Shown piece after piece: positions 8,953 through 27,841 of a DNA stretch of 45,607 bases (its first letter is position 1; each line of letters opens with the position of its first letter). The notes below the pieces were generated by a model. The model searched no databases and was not told the origin of the DNA. It worked only from the letters and a program-made list of their open reading frames with translations. Both the position numbers and the translations under genes were made by a program. Source of the stretch: Paeniroseomonas aquatica (GTDB lineage: Bacteria; Pseudomonadota; Alphaproteobacteria; Acetobacterales; Acetobacteraceae); contig NZ_JAUFPN010000194.1 in assembly GCF_030409335.1 (NCBI RefSeq), positions 45,488 to 91,094 of the forward strand. The letters run 5' to 3'.

Positions 8953-9936
8953 TCACTCCACCGTGGCACCCGAAAGCCGCACCAATTCCGCCACCCGCGG
9001 CAGCTCCGCCGCGAAGAAGGCGGCGAATTCCGCAGGCGTGCTGCCCACCGGCTGGTAGCCGAGCTGCTCCAGCCGCTCCCGTATCGCCGGCTGCCGCAGG
9101 CCGGACGCCACCTCCTGCGACAGCCGGGCGACCGCCGCCGGCGGAGTCCCGGCCGCGGCAAAGAGGCCGAGCCAGCTGTTGAAGCTGTAGCCCGGCACCG
9201 CTTCCGCCACCGCCGGGATATCGGGCAGCTGCGCGGATCTCGACTCCCGGGTGATGCCGAGCGCCCGGACCTGGCCGGCGCGGACCTGCTGCAGGGCCTC
9301 GACCACCGGGGCGAACATCAGGTCCAGCCGGCCGGAGACGAGGTCGGTCATGGCCGGGGCGCCGCCGCGGTAGGAGACCTGGGTGAATTTCACCCCGGCC
9401 AGGTGCTCGAACTGCGCCATGGCGAAGTGCTGGGTGCTGCCGGCGCCGGCGGTGCCGCAGTTGAGGCTGCCCGGCCTGGCCCGGGCGCGCGCCACCAGCG
9501 CCGCGACATCCGGCACCGCCAGGCCGGGGTGGACCACCAGCAGCGCGGCGCTCAGCGCCACCAGCGACACCGGGGCGAAATCCTTCACCGGGTCGAAGGG
9601 CAGGTTGCGATACAGCGCCGCATTGGTCGCGTGCGACCCCATCGAGGCCACCACCAGCGTATGCCCGTCGGGCGCGCTGCGGGCGACGTATTCGGTGCCG
9701 ACGTTGCCGGCGGCGCCGGTGCGGTTCTCGACCAGCACCGGCTGGCCCAGCCCGGCGGTGATGGCCTGGGCCACCACCCGGGCGGTGGTATCGGTGCTGC
9801 CGCCGGGGGCGAAGCCGACGACGAGGCGCACCGGGCGGTCGGGGCTCCAGACGGGTTGGGCCAGGCTCGGCTGGGCCAGGGCCGGGCGGCAGAACGGCAG
9901 GCCGGCGAGCACCGGCAGCAGGCGGCGGCGGTTCAT
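8953..9936 (-). CDS. Bug-family (TctC) tripartite tricarboxylate transporter receptor
   Basis: 327 residues with a Sec signal (MNRRRLLPVLAGL to ALAQP). The mature part carries hallmarks of Bug receptors: RPVRLVVGFAPGGSTD, VENRTGAAGNVGTEYVARSAPDGHTL, PGSLNCGTAGAGSTQHF and YRGGAPAMTDLVSGRLDLMF. These periplasmic proteins bind small carboxylic acids, usually feeding a TctAB permease or signalling; no TctAB genes are in the window, which is common for this expanded family. AGGAGGATC precedes the ATG at 9936. It lies 64 bp after the reductase gene on the same strand, probably co-transcribed. Confidence 0.93.
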   Translation of the reverse strand: MNRRRLLPVLAGLPFCRPALAQPSLAQPVWSPDRPVRLVVGFAPGGSTDTTARVVAQAITAGLGQPVLVENRTGAAGNVGTEYVARSAPDGHTLVVASMGSHATNAALYRNLPFDPVKDFAPVSLVALSAALLVVHPGLAVPDVAALVARARARPGSLNCGTAGAGSTQHFAMAQFEHLAGVKFTQVSYRGGAPAMTDLVSGRLDLMFAPVVEALQQVRAGQVRALGITRESRSAQLPDIPAVAEAVPGYSFNSWLGLFAAAGTPPAAVARLSQEVASGLRQPAIRERLEQLGYQPVGSTPAEFAAFFAAELPRVAELVRLSGATVE

Positions 9937-10000
9937 GGGCGGATCCTCCTTCGGCGGGGCGTTGGCCGCCCTCGCGCTTTGCATCGGTCCCGGGGCGGCC

Positions 10001-10924
10001 TCAGGCCGGCGTGCCGTCCACGTAGGGCTTCAGCGCGGCATAGATCAGGGCATGGGTCGGGGTCGGGACGCCGGCCTCCCGGCCCATCGCCACCACCTTG
10101 CCCGAGAGCCAGGGCAGTTCGATCCGGTTGCCGCGGATCAGGTCGATCGCCATGGAGGCCATCATGCTCGGCGGGGAGTTCCGATTGAAGCCGGCCATCT
10201 TCTGTTCCACGTCGGGCGGCAGCGGCACGCCGCGGGCGCGGGCCACCTCGATCACCTCCCGGTAGGCCGCGGTGAAATAGGGCGCGATGTCCGGGTCGTC
10301 CCGCAGCCGGCCGATCGGCTGGCGGGTCAGGGCCGTCAGCCCCGCGTTGCTGGCCAGCATGATGAATTTCATCCACAGCTCGGTCACGATGGCGGGGCTG
10401 AGCGTGGCATCGAAGCCGGCCTTCTCGCAGAGCGCGAGGAAGGCCTCGGCGCGCGGGCTGCGGGTCCCGTCCAGCTCGCCGAAGATCATCCGCATGAAGG
10501 TGCCGGTCTGGCGGATGACGCCGGGCTCGGCGATGGTGGCGCTGATCTGGGCGACGCCGCCCATCACCGCGCGGGGGCCGAGGATCGGCAGCAGCCGCTC
10601 GCTCGCGTCGATACCGTTCTGCAGCGGCAGCACCGCGGTCTCCGGCCCGACCATGGGCCTGATCCGTTCCCCCGCGGTCTCGACATCCCAGAGCTTCACG
10701 CAGAACAGCACCAGGTCCACCACGCCGATGGCGGCGGGGTCGTCGGTCGCCTGGGTGGGCAGCAGGTGGCTCTCGCCGCGGCCGCCCTCGACGCGCAGCC
10801 CCTTCTCCCGCATGGCCGCGAGATGCGCCCCCCGCGCGAGGAAGGTCACATCCGCCCCGGCCCTGGCCAGGGCCACGCCGAAGCCACCGCCGACGCCGCC
10901 GGCCCCGATCACCGCGATCCGCAT
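10001..10924 (-). CDS. 2-dehydropantoate 2-reductase (ketopantoate reductase) family
   Basis: 307 residues. The N-terminal Rossmann domain has MRIAVIGAGGVGGGFGVAL, binding NADPH, then FCVKLWDVE and LPLQNGIDA. The C-terminal helical domain has ELWMKFIMLASNAGLTALTR (Lys of the active site) and the PPSMMASMAIDLIRGNRIEL stretch that corresponds to the PSM...D...R.EI signature. In E. coli PanE the reaction gives pantoate for CoA. Pairing with a Bug receptor suggests a catabolic 2-keto-acid reductase is also possible, so I withhold the symbol. AGGAG precedes the ATG at 10924. Confidence 0.88.
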   Translation of the reverse strand: MRIAVIGAGGVGGGFGVALARAGADVTFLARGAHLAAMREKGLRVEGGRGESHLLPTQATDDPAAIGVVDLVLFCVKLWDVETAGERIRPMVGPETAVLPLQNGIDASERLLPILGPRAVMGGVAQISATIAEPGVIRQTGTFMRMIFGELDGTRSPRAEAFLALCEKAGFDATLSPAIVTELWMKFIMLASNAGLTALTRQPIGRLRDDPDIAPYFTAAYREVIEVARARGVPLPPDVEQKMAGFNRNSPPSMMASMAIDLIRGNRIELPWLSGKVVAMGREAGVPTPTHALIYAALKPYVDGTPA

Positions 10925-11050
10925 GCCCGTCTCCTGATCCTTCGGGCGATCATCGGGGGTTTCGCGGCGGCCGTCCAACTTCCCCCTGGCCGCCTTGCGG
11001 CGCCCGGCGGGCTGACCCATGGTTCCCGCCGCAATCCGGAGGGACCGCCC

Positions 11051-11644
11051 ATGAAGATCGCCTTTTCGCCAGCCAGCCCCTATGTCCGCAAATGCACCGC
11101 CAGCGCCATCGCCCGCGGCGTGCCGCTGGAGCGCTGGACCGTCGGCACCACCGACCCGGCGCTACTGCCGGTCAACCCGCTGGCCAAGGTGCCCTCGCTG
11201 GTCACCGACGACGGCGTCTCGCTCTACGACAGCCCGGTGATCTGCGAATACCTCGACAGCATCGGTGATGCGCCGAAGCTGTTTCCGCCCGCCGGCCCGG
11301 CCCGCTGGAAGGCGCTGCAGCAGCAGGCCCTGGCCGACGGCATCCTGGATGCCAGCCAGCCGCGCCGGCGCGAGGTGGCGCTGCCGCAGGACCAGGGCCG
11401 CATCGACTACATCGTCATGCAGCAGGGCAAGGTCGCCCGCGCGCTCGACGTGCTGGAGGCCGAGGCCGATAGGCTTGGGATGCTCACCACCATCGGCGAG
11501 ATCACCATCGGCTGCGCCCTCGGCTATCTCGACTTCCGCTTCCCGCACGAGCCCTGGCGCCCCGGCCACCCGAAGCTCGAGGCCTGGTACGCCAAGGTGG
11601 TGGCGCTGCCGCCGCTGGCCGAGACGATGCCGCCCGCCGGCTGA
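11051..11644 (+). CDS. Glutathione S-transferase family protein
   Basis: 197 residues. The thioredoxin-like half begins MKIAFSPASPYVRKC, has cis-Pro in LAKVPSLVTDDG and the YDSPVICEYLD glutathione-contact motif; the second half is helical (ITIGCALGYLDFRFP, PKLEAWYAKVVALP). It resembles the small YibF/GstA-like bacterial class of unknown substrate. GGAGGG precedes the ATG. It is divergent from the reductase gene with a 126-bp shared upstream region, and the ABC substrate-binding gene follows 62 bp later on the same strand. Confidence 0.88.
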   Translation: MKIAFSPASPYVRKCTASAIARGVPLERWTVGTTDPALLPVNPLAKVPSLVTDDGVSLYDSPVICEYLDSIGDAPKLFPPAGPARWKALQQQALADGILDASQPRRREVALPQDQGRIDYIVMQQGKVARALDVLEAEADRLGMLTTIGEITIGCALGYLDFRFPHEPWRPGHPKLEAWYAKVVALPPLAETMPPAG

Positions 11645-14417: not shown

Positions 14418-16352
<1,935 letters not shown>

Positions 16353-16933: not shown

Positions 16934-18550
16934 ATGGAGCCCAGCCGCCCCGCCGCCGACCTCGATCTCCGCAGCGTCCTGGAAGCGCATGCGCAGGCCG
17001 CGGCCGAGCTGCTCGCCCAGCCGCTGCGCCCGGTGTCCGATCACCTGGCGGGCTACGTCGAGACCATCTGGGCCGAACGGCCCGGCGCGGTATGGCTCAC
17101 CGGCTGGGTCAGGCGCGACGCCGGGCAGGAATTCCCGGTGGTGCTCGCGGATCGGCGCAAATACGCCGGCGCCATGGCGCTGGCCTGCTACGAACGCGCC
17201 GACCTGCCGCCCGATGCGCATGCCTTCGTCGGCCTGCTGCAGACCGATTGGCAGCCCGGCGCGGAGACCACCGACGTCTTCGTCTTCCTCGGCCCGGAGC
17301 TGCGGCAATTCATCCGCAGCGTCAGCCCGCTGCGGCTGCAGGACGGCCCCGGCTTCGCGGCGGAGTTCGGCCGGGTCCAGGCGCTGTGCCATGCCGGGCG
17401 CGTCAATGCCCTGCGCGGCGCCATGCTGAGCGGCCGGAGCTGGCTGCCCGACACCGCGGCGGTCTCGGGCGCCACGGTCGAGGCCGCGGTCGATGAGATC
17501 CTGGCGCTGCCCGGCTTCGGCTGCTTCGTGCATGGCTGGCTGCTCAGCCCGACGAAGCGCCTGGTCAGGCTCTCGGTGAAGCTGGCCGACCGGGTGCTGC
17601 ACAGCCTCCCCGGCAGCCTCTATTTCCTGCCGCGGCCGGATCTCGGCGCCGCCGCCCCGAAGCTGCCCGGCCTGCTCGATCGGGCCGGCTTCGTCGCCGC
17701 CATGACCGGCATGCTGCAGCCCGAGGATCTGGTCTCGCCGGTCCTCAAGGCCTGGTTCTCGGACGGGACCTCGGTGAATTTCGCCCTCGAGCCGCAGGTG
17801 GTGCGCCGGCTCGGCCATGCGGTGCCCTATGAGGCGGCGCTGCGCTTCTACCCCGCCCTGGCGAACGAGACCTTCTTCGCGGATTTCGCCGGCGCCGTGC
17901 GCGACGAGATGGCGGGCCGGCTGGCGGCGTCGCAGATGCTGGGCACGGCGCCGCAGGCCGAACGCTACGTCATCGCCATCCTGCCTCCGCATCCCTCCGA
18001 TGCCCGGCTGATGGTCGACCAGCTGGCGCTGCGGCTGCGGGGCCGCGACCCGCTTCCGGCCGTCGCCCTGGTGGCGGAACAGGGCATGGCGCGGGCGCAG
18101 CTGCCGCTGATGGCCGACTGGGTGCGGACGGCCACCGGCGCGCCCTGCGCCCTCTTCACCATGGACGATACCAGCAAGCCCTTCCTGGCGCTGCCGGCCA
18201 TCCTCGACAGCCTGGGCGCCCGGCGCTTCATGGTCGTGGGCGCCGGCGCCTTCCCGGATGCCGCGGCCTGGTCCGGCAGCCTCGACAGGCTGATGGGGGA
18301 GGAGGAAGCGCTGTCCGTGCTGACCGCCACCAATGGCGCGGCCCTGGCCGGCATGGTCTGGACCGCCGCCAACTTCCGCGCCCACCTGGCCACCGCCAGC
18401 CCGGCGGTCGGCGCGACCCATGGCCAGGCCTTCCTCGGCCCGGCGGCACGGGTGGCCGGCCGGGCCCGCATGACCGCACTGGGCGGCCGGCCCGACCGGA
18501 TGCTCGAATCCGTCGATGCGGCGGCCCCGGCGCAGGGCGGCAGCCGATGA
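16934..18550 (+). CDS. Unknown glycan-island protein with GW-type beta modules
   Basis: 538 residues; I know no named family for it. Residues about 40-110 (AVWLTGWVRRDAGQEFPVVL, then an RADLPPDAHAFVGLL segment) and about 190-255 (GCFVHGWLLSPTKRLVRL, then LPRPDL) look like two copies of a small beta-sandwich module with a G-W followed by an (R/P)-x-D-L turn. The same module seems to open the protein at 19929. The C-terminal third (about 345-505: ILPPHPSDARLMVDQLALRL, FMVVGAGAFPDAAAWSGSL) has a nucleotide-fold look and could be a degenerate GT2-like domain. I chose ATG 16934 because the upstream frame has no protein-like composition. The next gene overlaps by 4 bp. Confidence 0.8.
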   Translation: MEPSRPAADLDLRSVLEAHAQAAAELLAQPLRPVSDHLAGYVETIWAERPGAVWLTGWVRRDAGQEFPVVLADRRKYAGAMALACYERADLPPDAHAFVGLLQTDWQPGAETTDVFVFLGPELRQFIRSVSPLRLQDGPGFAAEFGRVQALCHAGRVNALRGAMLSGRSWLPDTAAVSGATVEAAVDEILALPGFGCFVHGWLLSPTKRLVRLSVKLADRVLHSLPGSLYFLPRPDLGAAAPKLPGLLDRAGFVAAMTGMLQPEDLVSPVLKAWFSDGTSVNFALEPQVVRRLGHAVPYEAALRFYPALANETFFADFAGAVRDEMAGRLAASQMLGTAPQAERYVIAILPPHPSDARLMVDQLALRLRGRDPLPAVALVAEQGMARAQLPLMADWVRTATGAPCALFTMDDTSKPFLALPAILDSLGARRFMVVGAGAFPDAAAWSGSLDRLMGEEEALSVLTATNGAALAGMVWTAANFRAHLATASPAVGATHGQAFLGPAARVAGRARMTALGGRPDRMLESVDAAAPAQGGSR

Positions 18551-19902
18551 GCATCGAGCTGGATCCCGGGCTGCAGGCGCTGCTGCCGGTCGCCATCATC
18601 TCCCATGCCCATCCCTCGATCTCCAAGGGCGGGGCGGAGATCGCGGCCCATACGCTGTTCCAGGGCCTGCGGGCGCTCGGCATCCCCGCCGTCTTCATCG
18701 CCGCCGTGCCCCTGCCGCTGCGGGACCAGCTGGATCTCGGGGCCGATGAATACGCGGTCTTCCACGACCCCGCGGCCTACGACCACCTCTATCAGCTGGG
18801 CGACGCCGCCACGCTGCAGCAGCTCCGCGGCATCCTCCGCGAGACCGGCGCGCGGCTGCTGAACTTCCACCACTTCATGAGCTTCGGCATCAACGCCCTG
18901 CGCGACCTGGCACTGACGCCCGACCTGCGCACGGTGGTGACGCTGCACGAGTTCCTGGCCATCTGCCACCACCACGGGCAGATGGTGACCCGGCCGCATC
19001 GCAGCCTGTGCTCGATGGCGACCGAGAGCGCCTGCGGCGCCTGCTTCCCCGAGCTGGGCTGGCGCCGCATGGGCCTGCGGGCCGAGCTGTTCCGCGACAG
19101 CTTCGCGGCGGTGGACCACTTCATCGCGCCGAGCCAGTTCCTGATCGACCGCTTCGTGCAGTGGGGCGTCCCCGCCGCGCGGATGGGGATGATCGAGAAT
19201 GGCCTGGCGCGCTTCATCCCGGAGCAGGATGAGGGGCCGGCCGCGGGGCAGAAATCCACCTGGGTCTTCGGCTACTTCGGCCAGGTCACCCCCTTCAAGG
19301 GCGTCGATGTCCTGCTGACCGCGGCGGAGCGCCTGGCCGGCATGCCCGGCATGGCCGAGCGGATCGAGATCCGCATCCACGGCAACCTGATGGGCGTCCC
19401 GGACGACTTCCGCGCCCGGCTGCAGGAGCTGACGGCAAGCCTGCCCTTCCTGCGCTTCACCGGACCCTACGAGAACGGCGCCGTCTTCGATCTCATGCGC
19501 GAATGCGACTATGTCCTGACGCCGAGCGTCTGGTGGGAGAATTCGCCGGTCGTCATCCAGGAAGCCTATGCCGCCGGCCGGCCGGTGATCTGCACCGGCA
19601 TCGGCGGCATGGCCGAGAAGGTCAGGAACGGCGTCACCGGGCTGCACTTCCGCCGCGGCGACGGCAACGACCTCGCCCGGATCATCGCGACGGCGACCGA
19701 TCCCGCGACCCACGCGGCGCTGCTGGCCCATATCCCGCAGCCCTTCGGCCCGGTCGAGATGGCGCGGCGCTACCTGCAGGCCTTCGCCGCCGCGGCCCGG
19801 CCGGGCTCGGCCGATGACGGGCCGACGACCACGGCCAGCCCCTCCTCCCCGATGCTCGACGTGGCTCTCCTGCGGGGACAACGAAAGAAGCGCGGCACCT
19901 GA
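18547..19902 (+). CDS. GT4-family glycosyltransferase
   Basis: 451 residues, GT-B fold. SKGGAEIAAHTL (from residue 27) is the N-terminal acceptor-side loop; FGYFGQVTPFKGVDVLL (about 239-255) opens the nucleotide-sugar domain; the E-x7-E motif lies in WWENSPVVIQEAYAAGRPV (about 329-347), followed by GIGGMAE. Such retaining enzymes add sugars from UDP-, GDP- or other donors to lipid-linked glycans at the inner membrane face. A Cys-rich insert (CSMATESACGACF) around residue 160 may bind metal. ATGA overlap with the preceding gene shows coupling. The C-terminal 30 residues are low-complexity. Confidence 0.92.
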   Translation: MSIELDPGLQALLPVAIISHAHPSISKGGAEIAAHTLFQGLRALGIPAVFIAAVPLPLRDQLDLGADEYAVFHDPAAYDHLYQLGDAATLQQLRGILRETGARLLNFHHFMSFGINALRDLALTPDLRTVVTLHEFLAICHHHGQMVTRPHRSLCSMATESACGACFPELGWRRMGLRAELFRDSFAAVDHFIAPSQFLIDRFVQWGVPAARMGMIENGLARFIPEQDEGPAAGQKSTWVFGYFGQVTPFKGVDVLLTAAERLAGMPGMAERIEIRIHGNLMGVPDDFRARLQELTASLPFLRFTGPYENGAVFDLMRECDYVLTPSVWWENSPVVIQEAYAAGRPVICTGIGGMAEKVRNGVTGLHFRRGDGNDLARIIATATDPATHAALLAHIPQPFGPVEMARRYLQAFAAAARPGSADDGPTTTASPSSPMLDVALLRGQRKKRGT

Positions 19903-19928: not shown

Positions 19929-20840
19929 GTGATCAAGGGTGCGATCGAGGAAGTTTCCGCGCAGCTGGTGTCCGGCTGGATCTATTCGCGGACCGCGCCG
20001 CTGCGTGACGCCCTGATCCTGGCCTTCTCCGACGGAGTCTGCATCGGCACCGGCCGGGTGGACCGGTTCCGGCAGGACCTGGCGGATGCCGGCCTGGACG
20101 ACGGCTACCTCGGCTTCAGCTTCCCCATCAGCCTGCCCGAGCATGCGGAGCTGGCCTCCGTCGTCGTGCGCCTGGCGGATGCGGAGGCCCTGCTGCTCCA
20201 GCGCGGCAGCCGGGTCGGCGGGGCCGGGACCCCCGGCCGGGCCGGCGAGCTGAAGGCCGACGACATGCTGCGGCGCATCCGCTGGCTGCGGCGGCGGAAC
20301 ATCATCGCCGGCGCCGAATACGACATCCTGCGCGGCCTGGCCCGGTTCGGCGTCCATGAGGTGCCGCTCGACATGGATCCCACGGTGCCGCAGTCGCCCG
20401 AGGAGGCCGCCGCCACCCTGGGCAGGAAGCTGCTCGAGCTGACGGTGCTGAACGAGGTCACCCTGAGGACCGAGCGGGTGACCGACGTCGACAGCATGCT
20501 GCGGGCCATCCGCGATGGCGGCGATCCGGCCAGCGGGGCGAGCCACGTCATCCTCTGGAGCCCGGTGCCGACGCGGGTCGGCGTCGTCGAGGGCGGCCAT
20601 CTCGGCGGCCCGGGCGCCGACAGCGCCGGCGCCGTCGACTACCACGTCGATGCCTCGAACCTCCTCGTGCTGCACGCCGGCTGCTTGGTGGTGCCGAGGC
20701 CGGGCGCCGATTACCGCTCCCTCCTGGTGATGAGCGGGACGGCGGGCACCGATCCCGCCGACTGCGTGCCGGCGCGGCCGGAGCCGGTCCGCTCCAGCGA
20801 GGGGCCGCGTCCGCTGCAGGCATCGGTCACCCGCCTCTGA
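19929..20840 (+). CDS. Unknown glycan-island protein with N-terminal GW-type module
   Basis: 303 residues starting at GTG 19929 (GGTGGAG upstream; the overlapping ATG at 19927 meets an immediate stop). Residues 1-75 (IEEVSAQLVSGWIYSRTAPL, RVDRFRQDL, LGFSFPISL) form a compact beta domain of the type often seen next to or fused with bacterial glycosyltransferases: G-W, then R-x-D-x-x-R-x-D-L, then G-F. The remainder has a helical stretch (residues about 110-160) and a beta-rich end without motifs. I see no catalytic signature. It sits 26 bp after the GT4 gene, so probably the third gene of one operon. Function unknown. Confidence 0.78.
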   Translation: MIKGAIEEVSAQLVSGWIYSRTAPLRDALILAFSDGVCIGTGRVDRFRQDLADAGLDDGYLGFSFPISLPEHAELASVVVRLADAEALLLQRGSRVGGAGTPGRAGELKADDMLRRIRWLRRRNIIAGAEYDILRGLARFGVHEVPLDMDPTVPQSPEEAAATLGRKLLELTVLNEVTLRTERVTDVDSMLRAIRDGGDPASGASHVILWSPVPTRVGVVEGGHLGGPGADSAGAVDYHVDASNLLVLHAGCLVVPRPGADYRSLLVMSGTAGTDPADCVPARPEPVRSSEGPRPLQASVTRL

Positions 20841-21093: not shown

Positions 21094-21768
21094 ATGACGC
21101 GCAAGCCGCGGGCCGTCGTCTTCGACTGTGACGGCGTGCTCCTCGCCTCCAACCGGCTGAAGACGGCCATCTTCGAACAGGTGCTGCAGGGCGCCGGCTT
21201 CGCGGCGGCCGATGTCGCCCGCTTCCGGGTCTTCCAGCGGGCGAATTTCGGCATGTCGCGCTATCGCCTCTTCGATGCGCTGCTGGGCTGGCAGGACCTG
21301 TCCCCCTACCCCGCGACCTCGCGCGACGCCCTGTGCGCCGCCTATGGCAGCGCGCTCTATGCCCGCTACGTCCGCTGCCCCGCGACGCCCGGCATGGTCG
21401 GCGTGCTGCGCCAGCTGCAGGACGCGGGCGTCCCGCTCTTCGTCGTCTCGGGCTCCGACGGCGCCGAGCTGGCGGCGGTCTTCGCCGAGCGCGGCCTGGC
21501 ACGGTGGTTCGCGGCCATTCACGGCTCGCCCGCGACCAAGGTCGACAACCTCGCCCTGGTGGCGGCGCAGCTCGGCATCCGCGCGCCGATGCCGGAGGTG
21601 GTCTTCGTCGGCGATGCCGAGGCCGACTGGAAGGCCGCGGCGGCGACGGGCTGCCGCTTCATCTACGCCGACCATTTCTCCACCGCCAAGCGTCGGATGC
21701 GGGCCCTGGCAGCGGAGACCGGCTTCCCGACGATCCGCGATCTCCGTGGGCTTGTCCCCCTGTTGTGA
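21094..21768 (+). CDS. HAD-superfamily phosphatase
   Basis: 224 residues with all HAD motifs: nucleophile Asp11 and Asp13 (VVFDCDGVLL), Ser119 in VVSGSDG, Lys149 (SPATK) and acidic GDAEAD (173-178). An alpha-helical C1 cap lies between motifs I and II, as in phosphoglycolate phosphatase/beta-phosphoglucomutase types. It should remove phosphate from a small metabolite. Being 13 bp before the cytidylyltransferase, it may do what KdsC or the Neu/KDN 9-phosphatases do: free a keto-acid sugar phosphate before CMP activation (inference). The ribosome-binding site is weak. Confidence 0.88.
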   Translation: MTRKPRAVVFDCDGVLLASNRLKTAIFEQVLQGAGFAAADVARFRVFQRANFGMSRYRLFDALLGWQDLSPYPATSRDALCAAYGSALYARYVRCPATPGMVGVLRQLQDAGVPLFVVSGSDGAELAAVFAERGLARWFAAIHGSPATKVDNLALVAAQLGIRAPMPEVVFVGDAEADWKAAAATGCRFIYADHFSTAKRRMRALAAETGFPTIRDLRGLVPLL

Positions 21769-21781
21769 GGTGAGTGTACCG

Positions 21782-22489
21782 ATGCCCGTCATTGCCTTCC
21801 TGCCGTGCCGCGCCGGCAGCCAGCGGGTCCCGCACAAGAATACCCGCCCCTTCGCCGACCGGCCGGACGGGCTGCTGGGCATCAAGCTGGAGCAGCTCCT
21901 CGGCTGTGCCGCGATCGACCAGGTCGTCCTGTCGACCAACGACGCGGCGGTCATCGAGATCGCGCAGCCCTGGCTCAGCGCCCATGGCGGGCGCCTGAGG
22001 CTCGACCGGCGCCCGGACCACCTCTGCGCCTCATCGACGCGGACCGACGATGTCATCACCTACGTGCCCGGCATCCTGCCGGAGGGCGACGTGCTCTGGA
22101 CCCATGTGACCTCGCCGTTCTTCGGGGCGGCGGAGTACGGCCTGGCCATCGCGGCCTACCGGCAGGCGCTGGCCGCCGGCACGCACGACAGCCTGCTGGG
22201 CGTGACCGAGCTGAAGACCTTCATCTGGAGCGGCGAGGGCAGGCCGGTCAACTACGACCGGGCGCAGGAGAAATGGCCGCGGACCCAGACCCTGGCGCCG
22301 CTGTACGAGGTCAACAGCGCCATCTTCATCGCCGCCGTCGAGGTCTACAGGGCCTGCAGCGACCGGGTCGGCCGCCGCCCGCTGCTGCACTGCATTCCCA
22401 AGGACAAGACCGTCGACGTCGACTGGGAGGAGGATTTCGCGATCGCGGCCGAGCTGTGGCGGCTGCGGCAGGGCAGCGGGCACCGCTAG
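21782..22489 (+). CDS. CMP-acylneuraminate synthetase-like cytidylyltransferase
   Basis: 235 residues. PCRAGSQRVPHKNTRPF (8-24) is the CTP-binding signature of the NeuA family (usual form ARGGSKGIPRKN), followed by VVLSTND and an HVTSPFF-type loop corresponding to the usual QPTSPL. Near the end, DKTVDVDWEEDFAIAAEL matches the family's IDxDxxxDF metal/sugar motif. NeuA-type enzymes join CMP to sialic, legionaminic, pseudaminic or related keto-acids. No sialate-type synthase is nearby, so the substrate may be unusual. GAGGTGAG lies before the ATG. The TAG stop is embedded in the first of two hairpins. Confidence 0.88.
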   Translation: MPVIAFLPCRAGSQRVPHKNTRPFADRPDGLLGIKLEQLLGCAAIDQVVLSTNDAAVIEIAQPWLSAHGGRLRLDRRPDHLCASSTRTDDVITYVPGILPEGDVLWTHVTSPFFGAAEYGLAIAAYRQALAAGTHDSLLGVTELKTFIWSGEGRPVNYDRAQEKWPRTQTLAPLYEVNSAIFIAAVEVYRACSDRVGRRPLLHCIPKDKTVDVDWEEDFAIAAELWRLRQGSGHR

Positions 22490-22530
22490 AGCGGTTTCCG
22501 TTCGCACTGGCTCACCGAGCCCGCTCTAGC
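22485..22530. repeat. REP-like inverted repeat covering the cytidylyltransferase stop
   Basis: GCTAGAGCGG (22485-22494) and CCGCTCTAGC (22521-22530) pair perfectly over 10 bp around a 26-base loop; the stop codon TAG lies in the left arm. A T-rich stretch (TGTTGTTGT) follows, so it could end plus-strand transcription. CTAGAGC-flanked palindromes recur between genes in many alphaproteobacteria, so this may be a dispersed repeat. Confidence 0.6.
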
Positions 22531-22543
22531 CTGTTGTTGTGGC

Positions 22544-22590
22544 GAGCAAATACCTCCGGCCTGATGAGTCCATCAGATCGGAGTTTGCTC
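22544..22590. repeat. Long imperfect palindrome between convergent genes
   Basis: A 47-bp inverted repeat: GAGCAAA (22544-22550) with TTTGCTC (22584-22590), and CTCCGGCCTGATG with CATCAGATCGGAG, about 20 paired bases with a 3-base bulge, two mismatches and a 4-base loop. Lying between convergent stops, it can serve as a bidirectional terminator or be a REP-type element. Confidence 0.6.
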
Positions 22591-22617
22591 CAGCGCAGCC
22601 CCCGGCGCCGGGCCGCG

Positions 22618-23781
22618 TCAGCCGCCGATCCCGGGACCGAGCGGGCGGCCGGCGATGTCCTGGACCGCGGCCAGGAGCCGTGGCGACCGGCCGGCCCGGA
22701 GGATGGCCTGGAGCGGCGACTGGATCTGCCCGAGGTCGATGGAATCGGTCGCCTTCATCTGCGGCTCCGACTTCGGCTGCAGCAGGCCGAGCCGCCCCAG
22801 GGCCAGGAAGCAGCTGCGGGACGCCTTGCAGACGTTCAGCAGGTCGCCCAGCACCCAGACGTTGCGCATGACATTCTGCGCGCCGGCACAGATCGGGAAG
22901 GCCCTGACGCCGCGCTCGAGCGAGTCCCGGGCCTGCTCCAGCCCCCCCTCCGCCGCCAGCAGCAGGCCATGGATGAAGCAGGCATTCACCAGGTTGAGGG
23001 CGCTGACCGGCGAGATGGTGACGCGCTCCGTCTGCGACGCGGCGACGCCGAAGAACCGGGTCGCGTGGTCCAGCCGGTCCTGGCAGATCGAGAGCAGGCC
23101 GCAGACCGTGGCCAGGGACACGGTCCAGCGCACCAGCGTCCATTTGGGGCTGGCCGTCCGCGCCAGCAGCCCGGCGCCCTCATCGACCAGATCCAGCCCC
23201 TGGTCGCAGATCCAGCGCATCAGCTCGAGGTCATGCGCGTCGAAGCGGCGGAAGTCGCGCTCCAGCAGGCGATGCGCGGGAATGGTCAGGGCGGCCGCCC
23301 GCACCTCGAAATCCGCGAAGCGCCCGTAGGCCGAGATCGCCCCGAGCATCAGCAGCCTGGGGTCCTTGTAGCGGCGGTGGTGCAGCTGGATCCTGTCGAA
23401 GAACGCCTCAGGGCTCGGCAGGGTCAGCGCTTCCAGCAGCTCGCCGGACAGGCGGGTGACGGCACAGCGCAGAGGCGGCGCGTCGCCCTCGCTCGAGACG
23501 ACGACGTCGAATGCCCGCTGGCGCCGGAGCTTCCACAGCGGCAGCCGCGTCGGGCCGAAGCGCAGCGGGGCATCCCGGGACTCCGGCGGCAGGCTGATCG
23601 CCATCACCGTCGTCGGGCCGAGACGCAGCCGGAGCCTGGCCCCCGCGAGCGCGGCGGGCAGCCTCGACAGCGTCACCAGGAATTCGGCGGCGTCGTCGTC
23701 CGGCAACAGCCTCGACGACAGGGTGAAAGCATCGGCCAGGGTCGCGTCCGCCGCCGGATCCGCCGTGATGCCTGGATACAT
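22618..23781 (-). CDS. Unknown 387-aa protein in the glycan island
   Basis: No family recognised. The N-terminal 115 residues are beta-rich (ARLRLRLGPTTVMAISLPPE, FDVVVSSEGDAPPLRCAV); the rest is mainly helical. Two helix pairs (LRWTVS-type around 205-235 and ALNLVNACFIHGLLLAAEGG at about 255-275) look like degenerate TPR or alpha-solenoid repeats. There is no signal peptide or membrane span, so it is probably cytosolic. It is transcribed against the surrounding glycan genes and divergently from the aldolase gene across a 396-bp gap. The frame is long, starts cleanly at ATG 23781 and has protein-like composition, so it is likely real. Confidence 0.72.
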   Translation of the reverse strand: MYPGITADPAADATLADAFTLSSRLLPDDDAAEFLVTLSRLPAALAGARLRLRLGPTTVMAISLPPESRDAPLRFGPTRLPLWKLRRQRAFDVVVSSEGDAPPLRCAVTRLSGELLEALTLPSPEAFFDRIQLHHRRYKDPRLLMLGAISAYGRFADFEVRAAALTIPAHRLLERDFRRFDAHDLELMRWICDQGLDLVDEGAGLLARTASPKWTLVRWTVSLATVCGLLSICQDRLDHATRFFGVAASQTERVTISPVSALNLVNACFIHGLLLAAEGGLEQARDSLERGVRAFPICAGAQNVMRNVWVLGDLLNVCKASRSCFLALGRLGLLQPKSEPQMKATDSIDLGQIQSPLQAILRAGRSPRLLAAVQDIAGRPLGPGIGG

Positions 23782-24177
23782 CGGTCAGCTCCTCGTCCTT
23801 GTCTGCGGCCGCCGGGCGCCCGGGCCTTGTATGGTCGGGCCAGGACCGGCGCAACCATCCGGCCCGCCGTCGCCGGGGGCCGCGCATCGCCCCCGGCTGG
23901 CCGCGGCGGTGCCCGGCCGGGGCGCGACAATCTTCCGGCAAGACATGCGGCGCATGCTCGCGGAAATCCCCGATCCGGCGCCTGCCAGAAAGCCGTGCAG
24001 GCCGCGGCGGCTGGCAGCGCCGGCCGGCGACGCCCGGCCCGAAGGCCCTGACACCCCGGTCCCGACCGTAGGCCCCATGCCTTGTCTATGGTTGGATATT
24101 GCCCGGACAAAGCGCGTCATGGTAGATATTTCGCATAGTGCGTTCACCACCTTTCAGATCGCCCGCAGGAGATCCCC
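23782..24177. other. 396-bp divergent intergenic region, no gene seen
   Basis: It should carry promoters for the unknown minus-strand gene and the aldolase gene. The last 110 bp are much richer in A+T than the surroundings. A weak pair TTGCCC (24099-24104) and TAGATA (24123-24128), 18 bp apart, could serve the aldolase gene. Two related motifs occur in the same orientation: GCCTTGTATGGTCGG (23824-23838) and GCCTTGTCTATGGTTGG (24079-24095), which differ by a 2-base indel and one substitution. Confidence 0.5.
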
Positions 24178-25743
24178 ATGGTCCAGGTGCTCGATTGCAC
24201 GTTGCGTGACGGCGGGTATTACACGAACTGGGACTTCGAGCCGGAAACGGTCCGGACCTATCTCAGCAGCATCGCCCGCCTGCCGATCACCTACATCGAG
24301 ATCGGCTACGTGAACGATCCCGCCGAGGGCTATTTCGGCGAATACTATTTCCTGACGCCGGAGATGCTGACATCGGTGCGCGCCGTCCTGCGGCCCGACC
24401 AGAAGCTCGTCGTCATGATCGACGGCAAGAATTACCAGCCGGAGCGGCTCGCCACCCTGTTCGGCCCGATCGCCCATCTGGTGGACCTGGTGCGGATCAC
24501 CGTGGCGCCGAATGCGCTCGGGCATGGCGTGGGCCTGGCCCGGGCGCTGAAGGACATCGGCCTCAAGGTCGGCTTCAACGTCATGTACCTCTCGACCTTC
24601 CAGAACGACCTTTCGCAGATCCGCACCGCCTTCGACGAGTCGGACAGCTACGTAAGCCTGGCCCTGGTCGACAGCTACGGCGGCTGCCTGCCCTCCAGCG
24701 TGTCGGCGCTGTTCCGCGAGCTGCGGGAAGCGCTGCCCAACAAGATCATCGGCTTCCACGGGCACGACAACATGTGCCTGGCCTTCGCCAATACCCTCGC
24801 CGCCATCGAGGGCGGCGCCGACGTGGTGGACGGCACCTTCACCGGCATGGGCCGCGGCGCCGGCAACCTGCGGACCGAGACCGCCCTCATCCACCTCGCC
24901 GGCCAGGGCGGCAACGAGCCGCTCGACTACCAGGCGCTGAGCAGCGCCGTGGCGCCCTTCGAGGCGCTGCGCCGGGTCCACGAATGGGGCACCAACCTGC
25001 CCTACATGCTGTCCGGCGCGAACAACCTGCCGCAGAAGGACGTCATGGATTGGATCTCGAAGAACCGCTACTCGGTTCACTCGATCATCCAGGCGCTGCA
25101 GCGGCAGAGCGGCGGCGACGTCGACCTGCAGCCCTACCCGGAACTGCGGCCCAACAGCTTCGCCGCGCCCTGCGTGCTGCTGATCGGCGGCGGCCCCTCG
25201 GTCACCCGGCACCTGGAGGCCATCAGCCGCTTCGTCGCCAGGACCCGGCCGCTGGTCGTCTTCTCCAGCACGCGCCACCTCGCCCATGCCCGCCGGATCG
25301 GCGGCACCCAGCTGCTGTGCCTGCCGGGGCACGACGCCTTCCGCGCCGGCACGCACGACCATCTCGGCGGCATCGCCGCCGTCGTCGTGCCGACGCCGCC
25401 GCGCGTCCCGGGCTGCCTGCCCGGCGACGTCGACCTCTCGGTCTTCCAGGCCCCGGCGCTGCGCATGGACCAGCCGGGGAAGATCGGCCCGGTGTCGGAT
25501 ACCGGCCCGCTCGGCCTGGCCCTCGGCGCGACCCAGGCGCTCGGCACCCAGACCTGCTACCTCGCCGGCTTCGACGGCTACGAGATGGCGAGCATCGCCG
25601 AGCAGGAGCTCTCGCGCGAGGTGGAGCTGGCCCTCAGCCTGTTCCGCGGCGCGAACCCCGGCGTGACCCTGCGCAGCCTGACGCCGACCCGCTACAGGCT
25701 CGACCCGATGTCGGTCTACAGCCTGGTCGCGGCGGTGGACTGA
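24178..25743 (+). CDS. HMGL-type aldolase fused to a DUF115-like domain
   Basis: 521 residues in two parts. Residues 1 to about 275 are a DRE-TIM metallolyase barrel: CTLRDGGYY (Arg10, Asp11), metal-site His194-x-His196 (GFHGHDN), and a DGTFTGMGRGAGN loop (218-230) as in 4-hydroxy-2-oxovalerate aldolase. Such enzymes make or break C-C bonds next to a 2-keto acid. Residues about 330-520 start VLLIGGGPSVTRHLE, similar to the G-G-G-P-S motif of DUF115/MptE-like domains known from flagellin-glycosylation (Maf) proteins. The fusion, next to a CMP-transferase and a HAD phosphatase, suggests synthesis of an unusual keto-sugar acid. AGGAG precedes the ATG. Confidence 0.85.
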   Translation: MVQVLDCTLRDGGYYTNWDFEPETVRTYLSSIARLPITYIEIGYVNDPAEGYFGEYYFLTPEMLTSVRAVLRPDQKLVVMIDGKNYQPERLATLFGPIAHLVDLVRITVAPNALGHGVGLARALKDIGLKVGFNVMYLSTFQNDLSQIRTAFDESDSYVSLALVDSYGGCLPSSVSALFRELREALPNKIIGFHGHDNMCLAFANTLAAIEGGADVVDGTFTGMGRGAGNLRTETALIHLAGQGGNEPLDYQALSSAVAPFEALRRVHEWGTNLPYMLSGANNLPQKDVMDWISKNRYSVHSIIQALQRQSGGDVDLQPYPELRPNSFAAPCVLLIGGGPSVTRHLEAISRFVARTRPLVVFSSTRHLAHARRIGGTQLLCLPGHDAFRAGTHDHLGGIAAVVVPTPPRVPGCLPGDVDLSVFQAPALRMDQPGKIGPVSDTGPLGLALGATQALGTQTCYLAGFDGYEMASIAEQELSREVELALSLFRGANPGVTLRSLTPTRYRLDPMSVYSLVAAVD

Positions 25744-26656: not shown

Positions 26657-26684
26657 GCCGGGGGCGCTAGGCCGGGGGCGCTAG
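26657..26684. repeat. Perfect 14-bp tandem duplication at a stop codon
   Basis: GCCGGGGGCGCTAG occurs at 26657-26670 and 26671-26684. The second copy contains the stop codon (CTA, 26681-26683, read on the minus strand) of the upstream glycosyltransferase; the first lies just beyond it. It looks like a slippage duplication. Confidence 0.75.
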
Positions 26685-27841
26685 GGCAGGACGCGCACCC
26701 GGTCCGGGCCATCCAGGGCATAGGAGACGTGCCGCCAGGACAGCCGCCGGCACGGCACCGCCTGCAGCAGGAGCACCAGCGTCACCAGGGTGCCGACCGG
26801 CGGGGTGAGCGCGACCAGCAGCTGGCGGAGCCGCTCGCGGCGCGGCTCCGGGGCGCCGATCAGCCGGCCCAGCCGGTCCTGCAGCCCCCAGCGCAGCAGC
26901 CGCAGCGCCAGCAGGCCGAGGACGAGCCCCTGCGCCAGGCCCGACCCGGCCGCCAGGCCCAGCAGCGCCACCCAGCCGGCCAGGTCCAGGCCGAAGACCA
27001 GCAGCGAGGCGTGGAACAGCAGCGGGCGATAGAGGTGCACGATCCGCATCTGCCGCCGCATGAAGGAGGCGACCCCGCCCTCGGGCGGAGTCGGCAGCAG
27101 CAGGATCCGGCGCGTCAGCACCCGCAGCCCCGCCCGGCGGGCCGCGGTCCCGATCGCCAGGTCGTCCGAGAGCACGCGGTCGAGGACCGCCGGCACGTCC
27201 AGCACCGCCAGCGCCCGGCGGGAGAAGGCGAGCGAGCCGCCCCAGGCGAAGGCGGAGGCCTGGAATTTCGGCAGCACGGCGAAGCCGCGGTCGAGCCAGG
27301 CGAGGTACTGCGCCAGGACGCCCGCCCCCGCGGTCAGGGGCCAGCGGTAGCCGGTGACCAGGTCCCAGCTGCCCTCCAGCGCCGGGCTCGCCAGCGTCGA
27401 CAGCCACCACCGCTGCGGCAGGATGTCGGCATCGAGCATCACCGCGGCGGCGTCCTCCTCGTCCAGCTGCCGGAAGCCGGCGATCAGGTTGCTGCACTTG
27501 TGGCTGCGGGTCCTCGTATGCGCGGCGAAGGCCAGCTGCAGCGGGAAGGGCAGCAGGGCGGCCAGGGACAGGGCCTGGGCGGCGGCCGGATCGGCCGGGC
27601 CCTCGACCGCCACGATGAGCCGCCGTGGCCGCAGGGTCTGCGCCGCCAGCGCCCGGAACAGCGCCGCGAGCGCCGGCGTCGGGCCGGCCAGCGGCAGGAT
27701 CAGCGTGACCCCGCCCTCGCAGCGGCGGGAGGCAGGCCGGACCCGGGCCGCATGCACCACCGCCGCGACCGCCGCGGTCAGCGACAGGGCGCAGCAGATC
27801 GTGGCGAGCAGCCAGGGCAGTGATGCCAAAGGTACCGTCAA
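26681..27841 (-). CDS. Ceramide glucosyltransferase/HpnI-like GT2 glycosyltransferase
   Basis: 386 residues. A membrane anchor (about 8-32) is followed by a GT-A domain: THKCSNLIAGFRQL-like NTP-sugar loop (SHKCSNL), MLDADILP (D-x-D, about 134-140), a D-D-L at LSDDLAIG and R-R-Q-M-R-I, corresponding to the (Q/R)xxRW acceptor motif. Three C-terminal hydrophobic stretches follow. This layout matches GT21 ceramide glucosyltransferases and hopanoid HpnI, so it probably glycosylates a membrane lipid. The start is a TTG at 27841 with GTGAGGG before it; no in-frame ATG lies near. Not in a hopanoid (hpn) cluster, so HpnI identity is not claimed. Confidence 0.82.
   Translation of the reverse strand: MTVPLASLPWLLATICCALSLTAAVAAVVHAARVRPASRRCEGGVTLILPLAGPTPALAALFRALAAQTLRPRRLIVAVEGPADPAAAQALSLAALLPFPLQLAFAAHTRTRSHKCSNLIAGFRQLDEEDAAAVMLDADILPQRWWLSTLASPALEGSWDLVTGYRWPLTAGAGVLAQYLAWLDRGFAVLPKFQASAFAWGGSLAFSRRALAVLDVPAVLDRVLSDDLAIGTAARRAGLRVLTRRILLLPTPPEGGVASFMRRQMRIVHLYRPLLFHASLLVFGLDLAGWVALLGLAAGSGLAQGLVLGLLALRLLRWGLQDRLGRLIGAPEPRRERLRQLLVALTPPVGTLVTLVLLLQAVPCRRLSWRHVSYALDGPDRVRVLP

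Follow-up and report, generated by a model that had tools for sequence, protein, structure and literature searches.

In the pathway to 3-deoxy-manno-octulosonate (Kdo), carried out by KdsA, KdsC and KdsB, as in NeuB-type routes, a condensation is followed by a phosphatase step and then by transfer of cytidine monophosphate (CMP). To our knowledge, all bacterial routes characterised so far, whether to CMP-activated sialic-acid-like sugars or to Kdo, start with a phosphoenolpyruvate (PEP)-dependent synthase, and genome screens for these sugars look for NeuB or KdsA. Here we describe a gene cassette in a 45,607-nucleotide stretch of the Paeniroseomonas aquatica genome (contig NZ_JAUFPN010000194.1; hereafter the window) that encodes a HAD-superfamily hydrolase, a NeuA/PseF-like cytidylyltransferase and an HMGL-type aldolase fused to a DUF115/MptE-like domain. 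The cassette shares with the Kdo and NeuB-type pathways their three-step scheme and the cytidylyltransferase superfamily, with a KdsB-like enzyme in some loci, but it shows no PF00793 or PF03102 synthase and has a metal-type HMGL aldolase in that place. It probably makes a CMP-activated ulosonic acid. With moderate confidence, we propose that the three genes form a dedicated short pathway in which the HMGL domain catalyses the condensation and whose end product is a CMP-activated 3-deoxy-2-ulosonic acid destined for a surface glycan.

The window is the end of contig C106 of a 6.5-Mb genome (G000; completeness 98.65%). The original prediction had recognised in it a HAD protein, a NeuA-like cytidylyltransferase 13 bp downstream and an aldolase-DUF115-like fusion, all within an island containing a GT4 enzyme, and each of these elements is borne out by family matches and coordinates. 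The genes and domains of the cassette are as follows.

21094..21768, + strand: HAD-superfamily hydrolase, 224 amino acids, predicted ulosonate-phosphate phosphatase (PF00702/PF13419)
21782..22489, + strand: NeuA/PseF-like cytidylyltransferase, 235 amino acids, predicted CMP-ulosonate synthetase (PF02348, weak PseF match)
24178..25107, + strand: HMGL-type (DRE-TIM) aldolase domain, residues 1-310 of the fusion (PF00682, match to 3dxi)
25162..25743, + strand: DUF115/MptE-like C-terminal domain, residues 329-521 of the fusion (PF01973 in homologues, predicted fold)

The cytidylyltransferase frame runs from an ATG at 21782 to a stop ending at 22489 and begins 13 bp past the HAD stop, while the complete fusion frame (24178-25743, + strand) encodes 521 amino acids. 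The HAD protein matches PF00702 with 62.9 bits (cut-off 26.4).

The fusion protein matches PF00682 with 85.3 bits against a cut-off of 29, with the best stretch at residues 122-256, and residues 2-310 align with nearly the full length of 3dxi (E 1.6e-82). This structure covers the N-terminal domain of BVU_2661, a putative aldolase from Bacteroides vulgatus. In a Foldseek search with the AlphaFold model of the fusion (mean pLDDT, the model's per-residue confidence, 88.3), 3dxi was also the nearest fold, with a template-normalised TM-score (TMt) of 0.94 and 42% identity over the aldolase domain; only the N-terminal domain of BVU_2661 has been solved. Next nearest, by both sequence and Foldseek, are the DmpG-type 4-hydroxy-2-oxovalerate (pyruvate) aldolases. 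In DmpG, the Arg and Asp of the DRE motif and the His residues of an HxH motif bind the metal and the enolate. The corresponding R10, D11, H194 and H196 align with these motifs and are invariant in 38 of 38 fused sequences, so that the Asp-plus-HxH metal site by which DRE-TIM/HMGL-like enzymes are recognised (D11, H194, H196) is kept throughout. Beyond the fold and these four residues the two groups diverge: the fusion lies in a glycan context, carries another C-terminal domain and scores 79.5 bits with TIGR03217, the DmpG-type model, far below its curated cut-off of 286.

We examined how consistently the fusion is found with the other two genes. The fusion itself served as the query in the pattern and profile searches by which loci were gathered, and these yielded 38 fused loci (the window, L003-L028, L066-L074, L077 and L035), several of them close relatives from the Roseomonas group; the Acetobacteraceae-type loci L042-L047 apparently belong for the most part to genomes already represented by some of L003-L012 and were not recounted. 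In a uniform scan of 5 kb around the fusion, whose queries were derived partly from the same loci, a cytidylyltransferase was found in 37/38 loci, a HAD gene in 32/38 and both in 31/38. None of the six aldolases taken as unfused (L036, L037, L038, L075, L076, L078) had either gene within 5 kb, with L076 (3.5 kb) and L078 (4.6 kb) being short stretches and the 599-amino-acid frame of L076 possibly a divergent fusion. In many relatives the three genes are directly adjacent on the same strand, and L016, L018 and L026 show 4-bp overlaps between neighbouring frames. Apart from the HAD and cytidylyltransferase genes, clustering of the surrounding proteins placed any other family alongside the fusion in at most 11 of 27 loci, as would be expected if the acceptor were a common metabolite.

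The cassette is found in distant bacteria. The first search for related loci gave 26 fusions whose matches covered the query largely or completely. They come from Roseomonas-type Alphaproteobacteria, Sphingomonadaceae, a Burkholderiales metagenome-assembled genome (MAG) and Bacteroidota, and include L005 of Roseococcus suduntuyensis and L017 of Pedobacter deserti. Among 395 genomes from the phylum of G015 (Pedobacter), we found 10 full-length fusions in 9 genomes, along with two weak matches, and nine of these copies, in eight genomes, were new to the set. In 385 genomes of the window's class there were three matches: the window's own, one in G079 that is also a fusion, and one in G032 that is an unfused aldolase. 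Of 234 plasmid records matched, we examined four (H1, H4, H6, H8); on a Leisingera plasmid, genes annotated 'aldolase catalytic domain-containing protein', '3-deoxy-manno-octulosonate cytidylyltransferase' and 'HAD family hydrolase' stand in a row. Finally, of 299 genomes from the window's family, which its relatives place as Acetobacteraceae/Roseomonadaceae, seven, from three genera, carried the fusion (E <= 1e-60) and six the window-type cytidylyltransferase (E <= 1e-30, in apparently the same draw), all six being among the seven (hypergeometric p ~7e-12, uncorrected for kinship).

The window's cytidylyltransferase belongs to the CTP_transf_3 superfamily (PF02348, 31 bits against a cut-off of 22.6, with a query lacking the first Met), and its P8, R10, G12, S13, R15, K19, D212 and D214 are invariant in 19 aligned rows. 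Its nearest NCBIfam model is PseF (TIGR03584), whose cut-off is 205.7 bits; the enzyme scores 56.6 and is by that standard not a PseF orthologue. In L016, L017, L018, L021, L024, L026, L070, L073, L077 and L035 the activating slot is occupied by a KdsB-like enzyme instead. Locus L027 has both PseF-like and KdsB-like genes, L006 has an extra KdsB-like gene on the opposite strand, and the L069 cytidylyltransferase is of a divergent type (PF02348, 42.5 bits against 22.6). On a 32-row tree of the aldolases, the PseF-like and KdsB-like labels each required seven changes, at least five of them forced by starred branches, each label being scored against every remaining row, whether of the other type, of neither or of both. 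The KdsB label was unclustered (seven changes versus a shuffled mean of 7.2). Both types occur together within three starred Bacteroidota groups (L017/L020, L015/L016/L018 and L021/L022). KdsB and PseF both make CMP-ulosonates. Their repeated interchange beside the same aldolase would be difficult to account for if the aldolase and the HAD enzyme did not supply an ulosonic acid.

Two alternative explanations bear directly on these results. The three genes could be chance neighbours in exchangeable glycan islands, with the aldolase making an unrelated decoration. The fusion is indeed rare and patchy, in seven of the family genomes and with three matches of any kind in the class, and its wider surroundings vary, yet a 37/38 adjacency spanning two phyla, the interchange of activating enzymes and the co-occurrence within the family make this explanation very improbable. 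Alternatively, the cassette might make ordinary Kdo or some nonulosonate that has already been described, the enzyme being new and the product not. All four KdsB-like partners analysed (L016, L021, L024, L026) score above the 255-bit cut-off of NF009905, the curated CMP-Kdo synthetase subfamily model. Moreover, G019, a MAG with a KdsB-like cassette, has a single PF00793 match (129 bits) that scores like an aromatic-pathway synthase rather than KdsA. However, among the seven genomes with KdsB-like cassettes (G014, G015, G016, G019, G022, G024, G025), all but G019 and G024 have a second KdsB-like-scoring match, which would be the household CMP-Kdo synthetase, and the window-type cytidylyltransferase is distant from the characterised families with which it was compared. 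We consider such a route to a known product unlikely.

For the proposed pathway to a 3-deoxy-2-ulosonic acid, we infer the following steps. The HMGL-type domain would bind a divalent metal and pyruvate and form the enolate. Addition of the enolate to an aldose phosphate drawn from central metabolism would yield a 3-deoxy-2-ulosonate phosphate of the kind produced from PEP by NeuB or KdsA. The HAD enzyme would then take off the phosphate, and the cytidylyltransferase would make the CMP-sugar, with CMP transfer pulling the reversible aldol reaction forward. The DUF115/MptE-like domain may bind the CMP-sugar or a nucleotide and perhaps acts as the transferase, in the manner of Maf flagellin glycosyltransferases. 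A gene of the NAD-dependent epimerase type (extended short-chain dehydrogenase/reductase, SDR) recurs in or beside Bacteroidota cassettes (L016, L026, L069, L070, L071), and an SDR match, in some cases weak, lies within 5 kb in 11/38 fusion loci, a family scan having been run on L069 only. Its product may act on the acceptor sugar.

The 193 C-terminal residues of the window's own fusion protein gave no Pfam match with E <= 1, whereas 14 of 24 aligned C-termini match PF01973 MptE-like, which we take to be the former DUF115, at that threshold (best E 2.6e-5). In a Foldseek search with a model of this domain (pLDDT 85.8), the matches were SteA (9hmz, 9hmy) and the Methanocaldococcus jannaschii HPPK 8sd5, all with E > 0.001; the match to 8sd5 combines a probability of 0.99 and a query-normalised TM-score (TMq) of 0.55 with a weak E of 0.014. 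The domain may thus resemble DUF115/MptE-like proteins in its predicted fold, with weak Pfam matches in its homologues, and differs from them in being fused to an aldolase. Maf flagellin glycosyltransferases are related to DUF115. One Maf enzyme is reported to accept both Neu5Ac and Kdo (PMC11339370). A GT42/CST-I sialyltransferase was considered for the C-terminal domain and rejected, being absent among the best 50 of 1530 Foldseek rows, with one unrelated match in the sequence search.

Several lines of evidence weigh against the proposed pathway. Within the aldolase itself, all 38 fusions have a Tyr (Tyr14) at the position of the DmpG-type catalytic His, a residue that follows the DRE motif in the DmpG-type chains 4jn6 and 4lrs, whereas the six relatives taken as unfused have Leu, His or Tyr there. 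The acid/base step must therefore differ from that of DmpG, and DmpG chemistry is not simply transferable. Gene content also departs from the scheme in some loci. The closest relative, L003 (85%), has no cytidylyltransferase beside its fusion: at 9009-11566 the HAD and aldolase genes are kept, and the cytidylyltransferase and the intervening divergent gene are both missing. The genome of L003 (G001) has a single PF02348 match, with a KdsB-like score, and the seventh fusion-bearing genome of the family sample (G704, 75% complete, taken as that of L003 from identical match values) has no window-type cytidylyltransferase. In addition, no HAD gene lies within 5 kb of the fusion in L019, L021, L022, L023, L024 and L027, the last of which ends at a contig end, and the HAD match of L072 is in two pieces.

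The cytidylyltransferase assignment adds a further reservation, as the CTP_transf_3 family also includes enzymes that do not act on ulosonates. Cytidylyltransferases likewise take part in making CMP-phosphonates, and phosphonate pathways can include HMGL enzymes. Matches to PEP_mutase (PF13714) were present in 33 of 36 genomes, 19 of them above the cut-off and none of these within about 10 kb of the cassette; one below-cut-off match lies ~8 kb from the G013 cassette. These distances were compared by eye, with the G002 cassette contig, only 3.3 kb long, not placed. A phosphonate pathway was accordingly rejected as a general explanation. At C54:31367-33987 of G012, away from the fusion cassette, a weak cytidylyltransferase match (31.3 bits) and a match to PEP_mutase (135 bits) stand ~2 kb apart and possibly mark a CMP-phosphonate cluster.

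The PEP-dependent synthases encoded by the host genomes also have to be weighed. The original prediction had noted that no NeuB or KdsA homologue lies in the window, and this holds, the NeuB and DAHP_synth_1 matches of G000 being on other contigs; the genome nevertheless contains a frame-broken NeuB. Two short NeuB matches lie in different frames at C107:115259-115596 (L001, L032), in a stretch that is interrupted by frame changes and continues, by eye, into a sulfotransferase-like frame, where an assembly error is possible. As assembled, this NeuB is no intact partner for the cassette and looks like a decayed nonulosonate synthase, and a NeuB pathway may therefore once have existed in the lineage. 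The sole PF00793 match of G000, a KdsA-like one (C251:379-1134), adjoins a KdsB-scoring PF02348 match (C251:1194-1826), and the only other PF02348 match in the genome is the cytidylyltransferase of the window.

Across the fusion-bearing genomes, the two phyla differ. NeuB is missing from all 12 proteobacterial genomes (G001-G012), in agreement with the predicted co-occurrence of fusion, HAD protein and NeuA subgroup without a NeuB partner. In the Bacteroidota, 11/14 fusion genomes (G013-G026) encode NeuB elsewhere. From a reading of their coordinates, 12/14 strong Bacteroidota NeuB matches are within ~6 kb of a cytidylyltransferase outside the cassette, the exceptions being G026 C10 and G014. 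Matches to PF00793 were found in 25/26 fusion genomes, mostly including one that, from a reading of the scores, is KdsA-like. No NeuB (PF03102) or KdsA-type (PF00793) synthase was found serving the cassette cytidylyltransferase; one encoded at a distance may still act, especially in the 11 NeuB-bearing Bacteroidota.

A second class of aldolase complicates the assignment of the condensing step. In L015, L066, L069 and L071 an HpcH/HpaI aldolase is encoded directly behind the fusion and could be the real pyruvate aldolase there; the conserved residues of the fusion are intact in these loci. We therefore searched the 395 genomes from the phylum of G015 for HpcH-type enzymes and found eight places in seven genomes, including the fusion loci L066, L069 and L071. 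Four of the other five were examined (L087-L090), with G1094 left out. Three of them, L088, L089 and L090 (G841 C7, G781 C1 and G720 C18), combine HpcH, cytidylyltransferase and HAD matches with no fusion in 11 kb. A gene scan of L089 gave, in a row, HpcH, CTP_transf_3, GAPDH, HAD, D-2-hydroxyacid dehydrogenase and MptE-like proteins, and L088 and L090 resemble it by eye. In the remaining locus, L087, neither a cytidylyltransferase nor a HAD protein was matched, and by eye its genes appear catabolic.

The cassette could serve CMP-ulosonate synthesis with the HMGL domain carrying out some other step, such as forming or altering the aldehyde or a 2-oxo acid side group, and with the skeleton coming from HpcH/HpaI or from KdsA or NeuB elsewhere. 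The HpcH/HpaI genes behind the fusion, their pairing with a cytidylyltransferase and a HAD protein where the fusion is absent, and the prevalence of PF00793 and, in Bacteroidota, of NeuB would all fit such a role. Nonetheless, no HpcH match lies within 5 kb in 34/38 fusion loci, NeuB is absent from the proteobacterial relatives, and, where the cassette is reduced to its three genes, nothing but the fusion is a candidate for forming a C-C bond, and we regard a different step for the HMGL domain as improbable. The HpcH clusters without the fusion are possibly a separate, parallel aldolase-based pathway to CMP-sugars, and they support pyruvate-aldol chemistry in CMP-sugar cassettes. It is conceivable, and we put it forward tentatively, that two unrelated pyruvate aldolase families, HMGL-DUF115 and HpcH/HpaI, each replaced PEP-dependent synthases, forming an unrecognised PEP-independent class of routes to CMP-ulosonic acids with undescribed products.

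The inference of the original prediction, that a metal-dependent aldolase adding a 2-keto acid may take over the PEP step, stands in part. The cassette is real, occurs in two phyla beside CMP-ulosonate-type cytidylyltransferases and showed no NeuB partner in Proteobacteria, while Tyr14 and the HpcH/HpaI loci count against it. The KdsB-like partners, the HpcH/HpaI aldolases, the Bacteroidota NeuB genes and the broken NeuB of G000 had not been foreseen.

The surroundings of the cassette in the window include two further features.

22618..23781, - strand: divergent gene with no Pfam or NCBIfam match, outside the conserved cassette
18547..19902, + strand: GT4 glycosyltransferase of the same glycan island (family match)

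The divergent gene separates the cytidylyltransferase from the aldolase, and the three genes of the window are therefore not one uninterrupted run. By tblastn, homologues of its product are encoded in L005 (twice) and L013, which are both fusion loci as well. The protein encoded at 19929-20840 likewise has no Pfam or NCBIfam match and has homologues in the fusion loci L003 and L005. Further out are an acetyl-CoA-synthetase-like AMP-binding enzyme (14418-16352) and, on the minus strand, a glycosyltransferase with weak similarity to HpnI (26681-27841).

Among the full-text literature matches listed, a search that leaves most subscription papers outside, neither the aldolase-DUF115 fusion nor an aldolase-cytidylyltransferase cassette is described, and the name BVU_2661 gave no match in the same literature. 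Judged from sequence comparisons, the HMGL-fusion cassette suggests an unrecognised, synthase-free way to sialic-acid-like sugars. If this is true, a pyruvate-aldolase route would escape the screens based on NeuB or KdsA, the structural-genomics orphan 3dxi would gain a role, and undescribed acidic sugars could be added to bacterial surfaces.

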